A stretch of DNA of 64,000 nt from an uncultured Flavobacteriales bacterium (GTDB lineage: Bacteria > Bacteroidota > Bacteroidia > Flavobacteriales_G > Salibacteraceae). Below, in pieces: positions 26,556 to 33,562 of the stretch; the first letter of the stretch is position 1, and every line of letters starts with the position of its first letter. The translations under genes were made by a program, and so were the position numbers. The notes below the pieces were generated by a model, which was not told the DNA's origin, ran no database searches, and was given only the letters and a program-made list of their open reading frames with translations. The DNA is taken from assembly GCA_943788725.1 (NCBI GenBank), contig CALSRJ010000001.1, positions 1-64,000 on the forward strand, given 5' to 3'.

Positions 26556-26786
26556 CCACAGGGTAGCATGAGTGACCCGCTGCAACTCTGCAGGAGATTT
26601 GTGCGTTGATCGACACCCTTAAGAAGCGGCGAGGATTCGCTAATATTTCCTACATTGAGAAGTGTATTTTGGTGATGTGTTGACAATGGGATTTTCTTTT
26701 TTGAAAAGTTGTGGCATTTTGTTGGTCTCTTCAAAAGATGTTCGCTCAAAAAAACACACTTTTGCCGCCATTAATTGACCAAACAA

Positions 26787-27239
26787 ATGGAAGATATATA
26801 CGAGTATTCGGCCGATGTCTACAAGAAGTTAGGGGATGCCATTCTTTGGACGACCATCCTCGCTGCCGTGCACAAAGACGGAGTGATAGAAGAGGAGGAA
26901 AGAGCGGAAGCGATCAAGCAAACCCACATCCGATCCTTTAGCACAGAGCCCTACATCAAGCCGATCTACGAGCACTTGGACGAGCATTTTGAGAAGGATT
27001 TTGATACCTATATCAAAGATCTCCCAGTAGAATATGAAGCCAAGGAAGCGTACATCCAAGCCAAGTTGGCGGATTGCGTGGCGATACTCAAAGACATGGG
27101 ACCTGTTTTTACGGCTGAGTTTAGCCGAGACCTGGAGAGTTTATTCGATCGCGTTTTCACTGCGAACGCAAGTCTCTTTCAGTCCTTTCTCTTTCCCTTT
27201 ATGACCGGACACCTAGAAGACAAGAATAAACGCAAGTAA
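26787..27239 (+). CDS. TerB-like small helical protein
   Basis: 150 residues, all helical by pattern and acidic. The first 40 residues (ADVYKKLGDAILWTTILAAVHKDGVIEEEERAEAIKQT) resemble the opening of TerB domains, including the D-x-x-I-x-x-x-E metal-binding-like loop. The remainder is not recognised. No signal or membrane segment. The start ATG 26787 is preferred to the TTG at 26775. The 231 bases upstream hold no other gene and only a one-mismatch -7-like CACTTTTG. It lies just before the sucC promoter. Confidence 0.5.
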   Translation: MEDIYEYSADVYKKLGDAILWTTILAAVHKDGVIEEEERAEAIKQTHIRSFSTEPYIKPIYEHLDEHFEKDFDTYIKDLPVEYEAKEAYIQAKLADCVAILKDMGPVFTAEFSRDLESLFDRVFTANASLFQSFLFPFMTGHLEDKNKRK

Positions 27240-27263: not shown

Positions 27264-27294
27264 TTTGCACCTTTTAAAGGGAAGGCTACATTTG
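27264..27294 (+). promoter_or_regulatory. Promoter of the sucC operon
   Basis: TTTG (27264-27267), 19 bases of spacer, then TACATTTG (27287-27294): both boxes match the Bacteroidetes consensus exactly. This is the best promoter in the window, 28 bases before the sucC ATG. Confidence 0.8.
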
Positions 27295-27322: not shown

Positions 27323-28534
27323 ATGAATTTACACGAGTACCAAGGAAAATCCATTCTAAAGAGTTTTGGAGTTCGTATCCAAGAAGGTTTGGTCGCCTCT
27401 TCACCGGAAGAAGCGGTAGAGGCAGCAAAGAAGTTGAACGCAGAAACGGGAACCGAATGGTGGGTTGTGAAGGCTCAGATCCATGCCGGAGGTCGAGGTA
27501 AGGGTACCATTGTAGGTACCGATCAACACGGCGTAGCCATTGCAAAATCACTGGATGATGTAAAGCGCATCGCTGGAAATATCCTCGGTGGAGCCCTCGT
27601 CACGAAGCAGACGGGTGAGAATGGAAAGCTGGTGAATCGTGTACTCATTGCGCAAGATGTATACTATCCTGGCGCGAGTGAGCCATCTGAATACTATATG
27701 GGAGTTTTGCTGAACCGACAGACTGGTCGCAATATGATCATGTATTCTACAGAGGGTGGTATGGACATCGAAACGGTAGCCGAAGAAACACCTCATTTGA
27801 TCTTCAAGGAAGAAATCGATCCGAAAGTGGGATTGATGCCATTTCAGGCAAGAAAGATTGCATACAACCTTGGACTGAGCGGAGGCGCTTTCAAGGAGAT
27901 GACCAAGTTTGTGGTTGCACTGTACAAGGCGTACGAAGGATGCGATGCGTCCATGTTCGAGATCAACCCCGTACTAAAGACTTCGGATGATTTGATCATG
28001 GCGGTTGACTCTAAAGTGACCCTAGACGGCAACTCACTTTTTCGACACAAGGATTACGCTGACATGCGTGACGTGACCGAAGAGGATCCAACGGAAGTAG
28101 AGGCAGACAAGCACAGCTTGAACTATGTGAAACTGGACGGAAATGTCGGTTGCATGGTAAACGGTGCAGGTCTGGCTATGGCTACCATGGACATGATTAA
28201 ATTGAGCGGAGGAGAGCCTGCTAACTTTTTGGATGTTGGTGGAACAGCGAACGCGGAGCGCGTAGAAAACGCCTTCCGCATAATCCTTCAAGACGAAGCG
28301 GTAAAGGCAATCTTAATCAACATCTTCGGTGGTATCGTTCGATGCGACCGGGTTGCACAAGGTGTCGTTGACGCCTACAAGAACATCGGTGAGATACCAG
28401 TTCCGATCATTGTACGTTTACAAGGTACCAATGCTGAGGAGGCCAAGAAGATCATCGATGAGTCTGGACTTAAAGTTCGCTCTGCCATCGCGCTTCAAGA
28501 AGCTGCCGACGCAGTCAAGGAGGTCCTTTCTTAA
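27323..28534 (+). CDS. sucC: Succinate-CoA ligase, beta subunit
   Basis: 403 residues. With the alpha subunit SucD it converts succinyl-CoA to succinate with substrate-level phosphorylation in the TCA cycle. It begins MNLHEYQGKSILKSFGV, with the ATP-grasp glycine loop HAGGRGKG, and ends with the ligase-CoA half (NGAGLAMATMDMIKLSGGEP, LDVGGTANAE, INIFGGIVRCDRVAQGV). Length and motifs are normal. sucD is not adjacent. It is the first gene after a consensus promoter; the next gene starts 22 bases after its stop, so it likely leads an operon running through accC. Confidence 0.95.
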   Translation: MNLHEYQGKSILKSFGVRIQEGLVASSPEEAVEAAKKLNAETGTEWWVVKAQIHAGGRGKGTIVGTDQHGVAIAKSLDDVKRIAGNILGGALVTKQTGENGKLVNRVLIAQDVYYPGASEPSEYYMGVLLNRQTGRNMIMYSTEGGMDIETVAEETPHLIFKEEIDPKVGLMPFQARKIAYNLGLSGGAFKEMTKFVVALYKAYEGCDASMFEINPVLKTSDDLIMAVDSKVTLDGNSLFRHKDYADMRDVTEEDPTEVEADKHSLNYVKLDGNVGCMVNGAGLAMATMDMIKLSGGEPANFLDVGGTANAERVENAFRIILQDEAVKAILINIFGGIVRCDRVAQGVVDAYKNIGEIPVPIIVRLQGTNAEEAKKIIDESGLKVRSAIALQEAADAVKEVLS

Positions 28535-28556: not shown

Positions 28557-30119
28557 ATGGGATTGAAGGCACTTGTAACCTGTTGCGTTGTCATCGGCTA
28601 TTCATTGATGGCCAGCGCGCAGCAGAGCAAGATTACCTTCAAAACGGATCCGATGAACGCCAAGCTTATCTTGGACGGTGAGGAAATGGGTGATGCCAAC
28701 GGCCGAAAGATCAAGGTTGGTTTCAACGAACGCAAAGGAATTGTGCAGCACGTGTTTGTGGTGAAAGCCGCGGGATATGAAGACAAGGATGTAACATTCG
28801 ACCTCGATACTCCCGCCCAAAAAATAAGCATCGTCAAGCTGGAGCGTACTTTGCCCACCTTTGATTTCGAAACGCCCTTTCTCATTGACTTGAAGATGAT
28901 TCAGTCGGGCATTGCATATTCTACGAACGTTGGGAACAATACCAAGTGGAAGTACAAGTTCGATGAAGAGATCGTCATAGGGGAGAAGCGACTCAAGATC
29001 TTGGATGAAATGGAGCGCATGAAAATGCCAACCCTTCGCAATGCCGAAGAGGGGGACGATGCCATAGCTCGCATACAGGTCAAGGGAATCGTTCAAGGCT
29101 TGGACATCAAACGCGGTCGGCAAATCGACAATTTCTCGCCCTATTCCAAGTACAATACCATTAAGACCACCATCAAATGGCAGTTCTACGATCGACAGAC
29201 CAAAGAGGTCTTCTTTGCAGAAGAGAATGAGGTCAGCTACGAATTTTCGAACTCCGAGATCAACGAAGAATTCTACAATGCAATCGTGGAGAATTTCGTG
29301 GTGATGTTCAATTTGAAACCCAGCGTGGCACGCGAGCTGAACGAATACGATCAAGCCTTGGTGCAGGCTGCTAAGGAAGCGGAAGAGGCAGAGCAGCAGG
29401 CTGCCCTAGCTGCTAGACAGGCGGTGCTTGATTCTGTTGCAAAGGCGGAGCAAATAGAAGAAATAGGAGCTGAATTAACCATCGATTCGAATACGTCTGC
29501 TGTGGTGAACAACCTTCGGCAGGTAATCCGTAGACCGACAATTCCACAAGTCAGCGATCCGATAGCCTTAGAAGCGGCCACCAAAAGAGCCGTAGTAACG
29601 CTTCAACCCAAAGGGGAAGACTACGTGCAAGGTGGTACCGTGATCAGCAGCGACGGGTACATCGTAACGAATTACTTGGATTCAAACATTTCGACGTTGG
29701 TCGTGCAGTTTTCGAATGGAATCCTACTCGAAGGAACCATCGTGTTGACGTCAGAAACATACCACATTGCCTTGGTCAAGGTAGAGGCTTCAGCTCTGTA
29801 CGCCTTGCCTATTATAGAAGATATGACTTCGGTGAACGGTGAGGATCAAGTGATCTCATGGGAGTCTGCAGATATTCGAACCTTGGATGCGAAGCCTGCA
29901 CATGGTAAACTACTCGGAAAACAAGACCCCAACGGAGTGCGTAAACTATTGACCAACATTTTGAGCGAACGCGTGAGTGCCGGAGCTGCCTTGATCGATG
30001 CGCAGGGTAGGGTCATCGGAATCATTGATCACGCAGACAGTGGAGGTGCCCTCTCCCAAATGACGATGGCTATTGACGCGCGCTACATCAATCTCGTCTT
30101 AGGAATCGGATATGAATAG
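28557..30119 (+). CDS. Secreted PEGA-like/HtrA-like protein lacking the protease triad
   Basis: 520 residues. Signal peptide MGLKALVTCCVVIGYSLMASAQ, then a PEGA-like domain (about 25-95: TFKTDPMNAKLILDGEEMG, VKAAGYEDKDVTF). An unrecognised beta-rich region (100-265), an Ala/Glu-rich coiled coil (about 270-305) and a C-terminal HtrA-like trypsin fold (359-520) follow. The protease frame is clear (GTVISSDGYIVTNY, HIALVKVEA, AALIDAQGRVIGII), but all three catalytic positions are replaced: TNNHV is TNYLD (372-375), DIAL is HIAL, GNSGGPL is SAGAAL (474-). It is therefore predicted to bind rather than cut. The longest frame begins inside sucC; ATG 28557 is chosen for the signal peptide. Its end overlaps the next gene by 8 bases. 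Confidence 0.75.
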   Translation: MGLKALVTCCVVIGYSLMASAQQSKITFKTDPMNAKLILDGEEMGDANGRKIKVGFNERKGIVQHVFVVKAAGYEDKDVTFDLDTPAQKISIVKLERTLPTFDFETPFLIDLKMIQSGIAYSTNVGNNTKWKYKFDEEIVIGEKRLKILDEMERMKMPTLRNAEEGDDAIARIQVKGIVQGLDIKRGRQIDNFSPYSKYNTIKTTIKWQFYDRQTKEVFFAEENEVSYEFSNSEINEEFYNAIVENFVVMFNLKPSVARELNEYDQALVQAAKEAEEAEQQAALAARQAVLDSVAKAEQIEEIGAELTIDSNTSAVVNNLRQVIRRPTIPQVSDPIALEAATKRAVVTLQPKGEDYVQGGTVISSDGYIVTNYLDSNISTLVVQFSNGILLEGTIVLTSETYHIALVKVEASALYALPIIEDMTSVNGEDQVISWESADIRTLDAKPAHGKLLGKQDPNGVRKLLTNILSERVSAGAALIDAQGRVIGIIDHADSGGALSQMTMAIDARYINLVLGIGYE

Positions 30120-31293
30120 GCTGAAGGTCATACTGCCCCTCTTGGTCGTGCTTCTTATGGTGGGCTGCATTCGGGAAACGACGCTTACACCATATGAGTT
30201 GCCAGACCTCGTGAAGTCGTACATCCGAAAGGTCGAATGCTTTGACAATGAAAATGCCTTGTTGGTGGCTTCTGATGAGGGAGTAATGCTCTTGTACGGT
30301 GAAGAACAGGTGCTCTACGATGCAAACATCTACGACGAACTTTTTAAGGTGGAATGGTCAGAGGCGGAAGTGCTGTACTCCCAATCCAATGAGATTTTTT
30401 GGATCATCTATGACTCTACCTTCATTCAAATGGGGAAGAATACCTACGATGTTCATTACGACAATACCCAGTTCTTCGCGGCTACCCAATCCTATTTTGC
30501 CTACGCGCTTTCCAATGAGGGCAATTTGATGCGGTTAGGGTATTGGAAAGAATTTTGGGATCAGAACTCTGGCTCCTTTTACTCAGATTACTACATCGGC
30601 ATCTACGAATACCTAGGTAACAACAACAATACCTGGAGAGAGTACCAAACGGATATCACAGTGAATTCCAAGTTTTTGGCCAATCCGAATTTTACAGTGG
30701 TAGCCAATGGCGATATCATCCTCCATACCAATCCAGGATACATCATCACAGCGTACGATGATCAAGGAGCCACTGCCGATTCTGTATCGAGAAGCGGACA
30801 GGGATTCAAGTTTCGAACGGCGACACGCCCGCATCTCGCGGCTTCTGGCAATCTATACGGCATGCTGTATCAACCCGCTTTGCTCACTCCGGTCACGAGC
30901 ATGCTATCGGTCGGCTTGACCGAGGACCCCGTAGTTGAGCATGTATTTGAAGAGAATTGTCCCTTCCCAATGGAACATCAAGGAGCGGTAAAATTGTTGG
31001 ATTGGAAGGGCGATGTAGTGCGTTTTTATGTGCGCCAATACACGAATTCACTCTCCTCAAATACAGATGTTATTGGCCATATTCTGGAATATGACCTGCT
31101 GAACGATGCTTGTTCGATCACCTCTCTTTCCAGTGGTGAATTATTGAAGTGGAGCGAAAGCATCGTAGATGTGGACATCTTGGGGGCCATCGTGTACATC
31201 GGAACACGCGATGGACTCTTGATTTACGATTTGGAAACCGACGAAATCGATTCCTACCTGTTGAACCTGTTGGAATTGAAGTTGGATCAATGA
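30112..31293 (+). CDS. Uncharacterised lipoprotein
   Basis: 393 residues. MNRLKVILPLLVVLLMVGC is a clear lipoprotein signal with Cys19 as the lipid-attachment site. The rest is beta-rich with many aromatic and Asp residues and repeated blade-like stretches (ENALLVASDEGVMLLYGEEQ, LGAIVYIGTRDGLLIYDLET), suggesting a beta-propeller, though I do not recognise the family. It starts inside the previous gene (8-base overlap) and its TGA overlaps the next ATG (ATGA), so it is translationally coupled to both neighbours, which are also envelope proteins. Function unknown. Confidence 0.7.
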   Translation: MNRLKVILPLLVVLLMVGCIRETTLTPYELPDLVKSYIRKVECFDNENALLVASDEGVMLLYGEEQVLYDANIYDELFKVEWSEAEVLYSQSNEIFWIIYDSTFIQMGKNTYDVHYDNTQFFAATQSYFAYALSNEGNLMRLGYWKEFWDQNSGSFYSDYYIGIYEYLGNNNNTWREYQTDITVNSKFLANPNFTVVANGDIILHTNPGYIITAYDDQGATADSVSRSGQGFKFRTATRPHLAASGNLYGMLYQPALLTPVTSMLSVGLTEDPVVEHVFEENCPFPMEHQGAVKLLDWKGDVVRFYVRQYTNSLSSNTDVIGHILEYDLLNDACSITSLSSGELLKWSESIVDVDILGAIVYIGTRDGLLIYDLETDEIDSYLLNLLELKLDQ

Positions 31294-32084
31294 GGGCGGT
31301 TTTGGTCATACTATTTTTACTTGGCTTGTCCGGTGTTTCATCAGGGCAAGAGGCAGACGACGACCCTAGCCTATACTTTTTCAATCCAAGTGAATTAAGG
31401 TCGAGTATCCGACACGAAATGGGAATGTCTGTAGGGACGCATTGGACAAAGTCTCCTATGCGCGATGTTTACACCTCTGTAGTGGATGGCGTTGCTTACC
31501 CAGAACCCGTTTTCAGTAGGGCGATTGGCATCATTTCAGCGACGTATGAACCGCGACTACGCCTCATTGAATACAAGAGTGATGCATCCATCAGTTTGGA
31601 CATTCCACTGACCCTGTCTTTCTCCTTGGTCGACGTGCTTTCTGGATCGCGATACAAGTATTCTGCGGAGCCATTGACCGAGCAAGAATTGGCATCCAAT
31701 ATTTTTTCCAAAGAGCGCGATGGTATCGTGGGGATCTGTCATGTTGAAGCTGGCGCTTTGCTTTCTGTCAACTTAGGTCAGGGGGCAACGATTGAAAATA
31801 CCAAGACCGTCGGATGGACCTTGTCAGCTGGCTATAACTTCGTTCGCGGTCCTTTGCTGATGAATTTCTTCGAGGACTATGACAAAGCCGACTATAAGAG
31901 CTACCTCGGCTGGGGCACCCCTGTTGCACGGGTTGGTATCCACGCTGATAAAATCGTGGTGTACTATATGCTCGGCATTACCCCAACTCGGGTCAATTAC
32001 CAGACGGGTAGTACATTTGACGTCCAAACAGAATTGACGAACACCTACAACAGGCTCAGCCTGTCATTCAGAATAGGAAGATGA
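31290..32084 (+). CDS. Uncharacterised secreted/outer-membrane beta protein
   Basis: 264 residues with signal peptide MRAVLVILFLLGLSGVSSGQ. The mature part has alternating-hydrophobic strands (SLDIPLTLSFSLVDVLSG, TVGWTLSAGYNFVRGPLLMN, VVYYMLGITPTRVNY) and ends LSLSFRIGR, as in small outer-membrane barrels. I do not recognise the family. The start at 31290 overlaps the upstream stop (ATGA), and its own TGA overlaps the accC ATG in the same way. An upstream start at 31149 would lie deep inside the lipoprotein gene and is rejected. Confidence 0.65.
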   Translation: MRAVLVILFLLGLSGVSSGQEADDDPSLYFFNPSELRSSIRHEMGMSVGTHWTKSPMRDVYTSVVDGVAYPEPVFSRAIGIISATYEPRLRLIEYKSDASISLDIPLTLSFSLVDVLSGSRYKYSAEPLTEQELASNIFSKERDGIVGICHVEAGALLSVNLGQGATIENTKTVGWTLSAGYNFVRGPLLMNFFEDYDKADYKSYLGWGTPVARVGIHADKIVVYYMLGITPTRVNYQTGSTFDVQTELTNTYNRLSLSFRIGR

Positions 32085-33562
32085 AGAAGATACTTGTAGC
32101 CAACAGGGGAGAGATCGCACTGAGGATCATGCGCACTTGCCGAGAAATGGGAATAAAAACGGTCGCTGTGTATTCTGAGGCTGACAGAGATGCCCTTTTT
32201 GTTCGGTTCGCCGATGAAGCGTATTGCATTGGACCTCCCGCGTCTTCTCAGTCTTACCTCGTGATCGACAAGATCATTGATGTAGCCAAGAAGAGCGGGG
32301 CTGATGGAATCCATCCTGGCTACGGCTTTCTTTCAGAAAATCCTGAGTTTGCTAGGAGGTTGGAACATGAAAAAATCACGCTGATCGGTCCTCCGGCTTC
32401 TGCCATGGAGGTGATGGGTGATAAGCTTGCTGCAAAAGCGACCGCGGAAAAGCAGCGCGTTCCGCTCGTGCCAGGTTCAGCTGGGGCGGTAGAAGACCTA
32501 GAAGAGGCTAAGCGTGTGGCTAGAGAGGTCGGTTTCCCACTCCTCATCAAGGCTTCCGCAGGAGGTGGCGGTAAAGGAATGCGCGCAGTATACGACGAGG
32601 AATCAATCGACGAACAATTGACACTCGCCATGAATGAGGCAAGGTCCGCGTTTGGAGATCCCAGCGTGTTCATCGAGCGTTACGTCACCAGCCCAAGGCA
32701 CATTGAAATTCAAGTATTAGCCGACAAACACGGCAATTGCGTTTACCTCTTTGAACGTGAATGCAGCATTCAACGCCGGCACCAAAAGGTGATCGAGGAA
32801 GCGCCATCTGCCATTCTCACTCCTGAAATGCGCAAAGAAATGGGGGAGTGTGCCGTGAACCTCGCTTTAGGATGCGCCTACGTGGGAGCCGGTACGGTTG
32901 AGTTCCTAGTGGATGATCGGATGAATTTCTACTTCTTGGAGATGAATACGCGCCTGCAGGTGGAGCATCCTGTGACCGAGTTGATCACAGACGTCGACCT
33001 CGTTAAACAGCAAATATTGATCGCTGATGGCGAGCCCTTGTCTTTTGCTCAAGAAGACCTCAAAATCAGGGGGCATGCCCTTGAGGTGAGGGTCTATGCC
33101 GAAGATCCGAAGAACAACTTCCTCCCAGACATCGGAACGCTGACCACCTACAGAAGACCGCAGGGTCCTGGCATTCGCCTCGATGATGGTTTCGAGGAGG
33201 GCATGACCATCCCCATTTATTACGACCCGATGATTGCCAAGCTTTGCACCTTTGCTGAGGATCGGAAAGGAGCGATCGATCGGATGACACGGGCCATTGA
33301 CGAGTATCAAATCTCCGGGGTAGAGACTACCTTGGAGTTTTGCAAGTTCGCCATCAATCACGAAGCGTTTGTGAGCGGAAAATTCGATACGCATTTCGTG
33401 AATGACCACTTCAAGCCTGAAGCCTTAGAGCCGGTAGATGAAGTCGCGGAGGCCGCTTTGGCCGCCTTTGTGGGTGCAACTCTGGGCACGTCTAGTGGCG
33501 ATAGAGGGGTGGCGACAGAACAGCGACCCATTGTTTCGAAGTGGAAGATCAACCGTCGCTAA
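32081..33562 (+). CDS. accC: Biotin carboxylase subunit of acetyl/propionyl-CoA carboxylase
   Basis: 493 residues. It carboxylates biotin on a carrier protein using ATP and bicarbonate, feeding fatty-acid synthesis or propionyl-CoA metabolism. The N-terminal domain starts KKILVANRGEIALRIMRTCREMG. The ATP-grasp domain has KASAGGGGKGMR, ERECSIQRRHQKVIEEAPS and FLEMNTRLQVEHPVTE, and the C-terminal domain has GHALEVRVYAEDP. It is longer than E. coli AccC by a C-terminal extension of about 45 residues rich in Ala/Gly. No biotin carrier or transferase gene adjoins it, so the substrate is not decided. It is the last gene of the coupled run from sucC. Confidence 0.9.
   Translation: MKKILVANRGEIALRIMRTCREMGIKTVAVYSEADRDALFVRFADEAYCIGPPASSQSYLVIDKIIDVAKKSGADGIHPGYGFLSENPEFARRLEHEKITLIGPPASAMEVMGDKLAAKATAEKQRVPLVPGSAGAVEDLEEAKRVAREVGFPLLIKASAGGGGKGMRAVYDEESIDEQLTLAMNEARSAFGDPSVFIERYVTSPRHIEIQVLADKHGNCVYLFERECSIQRRHQKVIEEAPSAILTPEMRKEMGECAVNLALGCAYVGAGTVEFLVDDRMNFYFLEMNTRLQVEHPVTELITDVDLVKQQILIADGEPLSFAQEDLKIRGHALEVRVYAEDPKNNFLPDIGTLTTYRRPQGPGIRLDDGFEEGMTIPIYYDPMIAKLCTFAEDRKGAIDRMTRAIDEYQISGVETTLEFCKFAINHEAFVSGKFDTHFVNDHFKPEALEPVDEVAEAALAAFVGATLGTSSGDRGVATEQRPIVSKWKINRR

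Follow-up and report, generated by a model that had tools for sequence, protein, structure and literature searches.

A gene trio for predicted envelope proteins, located between sucC and accC in one Flavobacteriales genus, includes a trypsin-fold protein that has locally lost its catalytic triad

The attachment complex of type IX secretion, PorU/V/Q/Z, brings together the propeller PorZ, the barrels PorV and PorQ, and a C25 sortase. Other envelope systems join a lipoprotein to an outer-membrane barrel. In the XusB/XusA system of the Bacteroidota, a propeller lipoprotein is partnered by XusA, a 22-strand TonB-dependent transporter (PMC13142918). In the RcsF-OmpA stress sensor, a lipoprotein works with a barrel of the eight-stranded class (PMC7553776, PMC4942254). 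RcsF itself is small and threads through barrels. Trypsin-fold domains characterize the HtrA proteases DegP and DegS as well as the HtrA-type magnetosome proteins MamO and MamE. The latter are encoded in a gene cluster and have repeatedly lost the triad while keeping a non-catalytic role; there the loss came after a duplication in the cluster, and MamO, which binds metal, also has a TauE transporter domain (PMC4794232). Here we describe a three-gene module that resembles several of these systems in part. It was analyzed in a window of 64,000 nucleotides from an uncultured Flavobacteriales bacterium whose genome comprises 2.93 Mb in 7 contigs. The module genes, termed A, B, and C, and their surroundings are as follows.

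27264..27294, plus strand: promoter-like TTTG-N19-TACATTTG ahead of sucC (sequence match)
27323..28534, plus strand: sucC, module flank (Pfam ATP-grasp_2, Ligase_CoA)
28557..30119, plus strand: gene A, 520 aa; exported, signal peptide (by inspection); PEGA-like N-terminal region, middle domain, linker, and Trypsin_2 pseudoprotease domain
29592..30116, plus strand: pseudoprotease domain of A, aa 346-520 (alignment; PDB profile matches to DegP/HtrA)
29673..29675, plus strand: Tyr373, in the catalytic His column (alignment; a one-residue gap adjoins, the alternative being Leu374)
29763..29765, plus strand: His403, in the catalytic Asp column (alignment)
29979..29981, plus strand: Ala475, in the catalytic Ser column (alignment)
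30112..30119, plus strand: A/B overlap, 8 bases
30112..31293, plus strand: gene B, 393 aa; beta-propeller lipoprotein (predicted); lipobox, Cys19
31290..31293, plus strand: B/C overlap, ATGA
31290..32084, plus strand: gene C, 264 aa; signal peptide; small outer-membrane beta-barrel (predicted)
32081..32084, plus strand: C/accC overlap, ATGA
32081..33562, plus strand: accC-like biotin carboxylase, module flank (Pfam Biotin_carb_N, CPSase_L_D2, Biotin_carb_C)

By the features compared, the module is not a member of the MamO/MamE or XusA/XusB systems, and probably not of RcsF-OmpA. Unlike the MamO/MamE cluster, it holds a single A copy with a PEGA-like N-terminal region, and an intact A paralogue lies elsewhere in the window genome; what happened to MamO is nevertheless the closest parallel to the fate of A, as XusA/XusB and RcsF-OmpA are for a lipoprotein on a barrel. 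XusA is a large transporter, whereas C is a 264-residue barrel of the OmpA/OmpW class, and no TonB-dependent transporter adjoins B, whose neighbors are A, C, sucC, and accC. B is a large propeller, in contrast to RcsF, and window A shares the trypsin-fold domain of DegP and DegS but has neither a PDZ match nor a triad. The type IX attachment complex was considered and rejected: PorZ_N was matched at only 0.054 in 1 of 10 B members, C had no Por match, and A had no C25 match. The preliminary description had spoken of a complex that its author did not recognize, and, consistent with this, no described complex was matched in the libraries searched. The open-licence literature yielded no account of this module and none of trypsin-fold pseudoproteases in Bacteroidetes.

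The coordinates confirm three consecutive genes whose overlaps measure 8, 4, and 4 bases, in line with the preliminary description, and gene A begins after a 22-base gap from the end of sucC (28534). Single overlaps are commonplace in the window genome. Among 242 adjacent co-directional ORF pairs in 464 kb of it, crude ORF calls allow a 4-base overlap in 41 and an 8-base overlap in 11. Thus, it is the conservation of the overlaps across the genus loci, beyond chance, that carries the argument for translational coupling, a proposal that this conservation upholds. The A/B overlap is exactly 8 bases in 10/10 complete loci, although B identity drops to 19%. The B/C junction is a 4-base overlap in 8/11 loci (the remaining three being 1, 23, and 23), as is the C/accC junction in 10/11, the genes being 2 bases apart in the remaining one. 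For L053 and L056, where a longer B ORF exists, the B start was set by alignment to the window protein. The promoter described ahead of sucC was recovered as the promoter-like match listed above. Matches to what we take to be the promoter consensus, TT(T)G-N17-22-TAnnTTTG, lie just 5' of sucC in 12 of 15 scanned loci, including module-less G010 and G015. Since such matches also occur at module-less loci, the module probably relies on the older sucC promoter.

Complete A-B-C in fixed order, with sucC and accC on either side, was found in 10 of 13 genomes of the genus. In an eleventh carrier, G002, the locus is split between two contigs: one has sucC and a partial A, the other the end of B (profile E 8.7e-12) together with C and accC. 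The module is absent from G010, where sucC and accC are about 45 bases apart; in G015, of a different genus, the spacing is 9 bases. In G012 (L062), A and B are gone and the sole remnant between sucC and accC is a stop-riddled 3' piece of C, and yet its sister in a four-gene species tree, G004 (support 100), bears the module. The named sites were read directly, genome completeness being 86% for G010 and 78% for G002. To explain module presence, the species tree needs three changes, for which one gain plus two losses is the best reading. The module is a discrete unit within an older sucC-accC operon. Its position had been suspected to be accidental; this is probably so in origin, because sucC-accC adjacency occurs without the module, but the position is now fixed. 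The preliminary description had looked to conserved order with varying flanks as support for a system; instead, every carrier is flanked by sucC and accC, and the linkage may therefore be plain inheritance.

Searches of 100 relatives, the window genome counted, matched A in 18, B in 10, and C in 13 genomes. Matches to B were confined to the genus, and beyond it A was matched via its protease domain and C via one weak match. A profile of the A N-terminal part matched 11 of 42 genomes of the order, all in the genus, and one of 14 A-like or control loci (L015). A-like single-gene cousins with intact triads occur in other families. Homologues scattered singly, which the preliminary description had named as a sign against a system, do exist beyond the genus as A-like proteases and C-like barrels, but not within it, where the three stand together. 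Complete B and C were never found without A among the genus genomes, and A, B, and C together were seen in this genus only. The named module-bearing relatives are metagenome-assembled Flavobacteriales, two of them Salibacteraceae.

All three proteins had been described as exported, in agreement with the signal peptides in A and C and the lipobox in B. The pairing of a propeller-like lipoprotein with a possible barrel likewise held at the level of fold class, on which AlphaFold2, Foldseek, and VIA-align agree for the predicted models. The B model (AlphaFold2, 7 sequences; pLDDT 78.3, pTM 0.80) had XusB as its top Foldseek match (E 2.8e-6, TM 0.35), followed by many propellers. VIA-align matched B to many propellers at Z 13-15 (maximum 15.4), with XusB at rank 43 (Z 13.3, rmsd 4.9, 283 aligned); as the scores are similar for many propellers, the secure assignment of B is to the fold class only, and B is predicted to be a beta-propeller lipoprotein. 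Pfam and NCBIfam contained no informative match to B, and against PDB sequence profiles it matched sensor propellers weakly (0.19). Its profile matched 54 of 345 genomes of the class; beyond the genus the matches were mostly to long propeller proteins, at their last blade (about residues 290-391). Lys or Arg at +3 with Asp or Glu at +4 after the lipid-bearing Cys was seen in 7/10 B proteins and, by a crude prediction, in 2/30 predicted lipoproteins, B included, from 464 kb of the window genome. The published lipoprotein export signal is C-x-K-(D/E)2 (PMC5080379); among B proteins only that of G004 has it in full. On these residues, B is possibly surface-exposed.

The C model (AlphaFold2, 8 sequences; pLDDT 77.7, pTM 0.74) retrieved barrels of the OmpA, OmpW, OprG, and OprF class with Foldseek (probability 1.00, low TM). 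In VIA-align it matched OprF at Z 11.9 (rmsd 2.8 over 128) and NspA, OmpW, and OmpA at Z 11.3-11.4. C is therefore predicted, from the model, to be a small outer-membrane barrel of the OmpA/OmpW class. At E up to 0.1, Pfam matched none of 11 members to an OMP family; NCBIfam matched neither of two members to one, and PDB sequence profiles gave no convincing match to C. The C profile matched 26 of 395 genomes of the class at E up to 0.01, mostly weakly, as in a loose small-barrel superfamily. We read the C-like neighborhoods in 19 stretches and in G025, some matches, such as G355, falling outside this set. Beyond the genus these were lone barrel genes with no A or B alongside, except for a pair in G025, of another genus (L063:7179-8920, minus strand). 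There, at a different locus, a gene homologous to C (hhalign probability 98, E 2.3e-13) overlaps by 4 bases (ATGA) a lipoprotein with two-component-propeller repeats, whose homology to B is not detectable; no A-like gene stands alongside. This one case suggests that a propeller lipoprotein and a C-type barrel are a recurrent pair. The G025 pair adjoins a gene that is presumably fumarylacetoacetate-hydrolase-like.

In window A, the Trypsin_2 match has E 6.6e-8 (33.8 bits vs a cut-off of 27.6). The NCBIfam HtrA/DegP models score window A below their cut-offs (25.6 bits vs 470; 24.6 vs 416.2), and no PDZ was among the families matched at E up to 0.5 in 10 A members. A PEGA match in the N-terminal region was obtained for 4 of 10 aligned A members (best 9.9e-5), though not for window A itself, and PDB sequence profiles gave no convincing match to the N-terminal part. 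The preliminary description had called A a dead HtrA-like protein. It is non-catalytic in the window species, but the His-Asp-Ser triad is retained in 7/10 complete A copies, so catalytic death marks a recent lineage and not the whole module. In the partial A of G002, His and Asp are retained up to the contig end. The window species and its sister G008 both have Tyr, His, and Ala at the triad columns with the one-residue gap alongside; in G005, His and Asp align and there is no Ser. On the species tree, the window species and G008 group with three live copies (support 90/91), a placement that implies two losses. A single clade uniting the three dead copies could not be rejected (p-AU 0.118), and the module tree leans toward grouping them (87). 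From these alignments and trees, catalysis was lost on the stem of the window species and its sister and, probably separately, in G005. A full-length intact A paralogue is present in G000, G008, and G001 only (3/13 genus genomes). A simple story of duplication and then loss is weak, as paralogue-bearing G001 keeps A intact and G005 lost its Ser without a paralogue.

We expressed evolutionary rate as the ratio of branch length in a module part to that in housekeeping proteins. For the protease domain, this ratio was 9.0 on the stem of the window species and G008 and 23.5 on G005. Live tips gave 0.20-0.78, with two exceptions at 2.17 (G009) and 3.55 (G001); the range on the other inner branches was 0-1.06. 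On the same two loss branches the ratios were 4.6 and 8.1 for the A N-terminal part, 2.5 and 4.9 for B, and 3.0 and 3.1 for C. After the loss, the protease domain ratio was 0.30 on the window tip, 2.49 on the G008 tip, and 1.8 on both tips (few changes); over these tips the A N-terminal part gave 2.0, B 1.9, and C 2.3. The dead domain is 89% identical between the window species and its sister and has no stops. dN/dS for this pair, with dS >1 and near saturation, was 0.052 for the protease domain, 0.067 for the A N-terminal part, 0.053 for B, 0.060 for C, and 0.016 for sucC. Furthermore, the protease:B dN ratio was 0.83 for the dead pair vs 0.21-0.32 in three live pairs. Live protease domains are thus far more constrained relative to B, indicating that constraint on the dead domain has returned but is weaker, as expected for a binder. 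A burst on the stem followed by a slowdown to roughly the pace of the rest of the module fits repurposing better than decay. Since the active site was lost and the domain is still under selection, window A probably now binds instead of cutting.

We tentatively favor the reading that A, B, and C are one envelope unit whose protease arm has turned into a binding arm in the window lineage. Expressed from the sucC promoter and coupled in translation, they would be produced together as a single outer-membrane unit. C would lie as a small barrel within the membrane, B beside it as a lipid-anchored propeller, possibly on the outside, and A would be soluble in the periplasm, docking through its N-terminal part and acting on a client or partner peptide with its trypsin-fold domain. 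Across most of the genus, A would remain able to cut, whereas the window species and its sister would have given up cutting and retained the fold as a domain that binds without catalysis. A physical complex of the three is plausible; the contacts, the membrane side of B, and what is bound or cut are elements that we infer.

Alternatively, unrelated envelope genes may have landed between sucC and accC as passengers that share expression and form no complex, overlapping because the operon is compact. The frequency of 4-base overlaps in the window genome (41/242 pairs), flanks that never vary among carriers, and the single A-like and C-like genes beyond the genus all agree with this. Rate covariation (Pearson), in line with passengers but not decisive, did not single out module pairs: it was 0.63 for B-C, 0.63 for C-DUF4294, 0.51 for B-recN, and 0.40-0.41, not significant, for A-B and A-C. 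We consider passengers unlikely, given an exact 8-base A/B overlap in 10/10 loci despite strong divergence, the loss of A and B in G012 together with inactivation of C, and the absence of all three from G010.

It is more doubtful still that B and C alone form a functional pair, a propeller lipoprotein on a barrel, with A a recruited quality-control protease so loosely linked that it was free to lose catalysis. The overlapping pair of G025, with no adjoining A-like gene, points in this direction, as do rate bursts on both loss branches in A and not in B or C, and a B-C covariation that, although not unique, exceeds that of any other two distinct module proteins. Against it, the G025 lipoprotein is not a detectable B homologue, and A is present in every genus genome that keeps complete B and C. 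The protease domain of window A might also simply be decaying: all three catalytic residues are lost, and degradation has gone further in G005 (no Ser, ratio 23.5). The identity and dN/dS retained after the loss, the intact reading frame, and the slowdown of the domain on the tips make this very improbable. Within the single envelope unit that we favor, A, B, and C might constitute a new sensing or quality-control unit of the outer membrane, restricted to this Flavobacteriales genus; its periplasmic protease would read a receptor made of propeller and barrel, and its output would have changed from cutting to binding on at least one occasion and probably on two. We regard so specific a role as improbable. 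If true, it would provide a natural before-and-after series from protease to pure adaptor with partners unchanged. Across the genus, a single chromosomal site is occupied by a live version of the module, by a dead one, or by none, so how an enzyme loses catalysis and keeps its place in a complex becomes testable. The module also adds an uncharacterized propeller-barrel-protease arrangement to the Flavobacteriales envelope.

Three further observations concern neighboring or related genes. At L064:4991-6679 (minus strand; G000:C3), a 562-aa lipoprotein-like relative of A has an intact-looking triad and adjoins a gene that we take to be PEP-carboxykinase-like. In 6 of the 19 stretches read for C-like genes (L150, L151, L155, L156, L162, and L164), a barrel gene of the C superfamily lies directly 5' of the next gene, presumably polyphosphate-kinase-like. 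Finally, the window carries at 26775-27239 a conserved gene 5' of sucC with a sub-threshold DUF5063 match.
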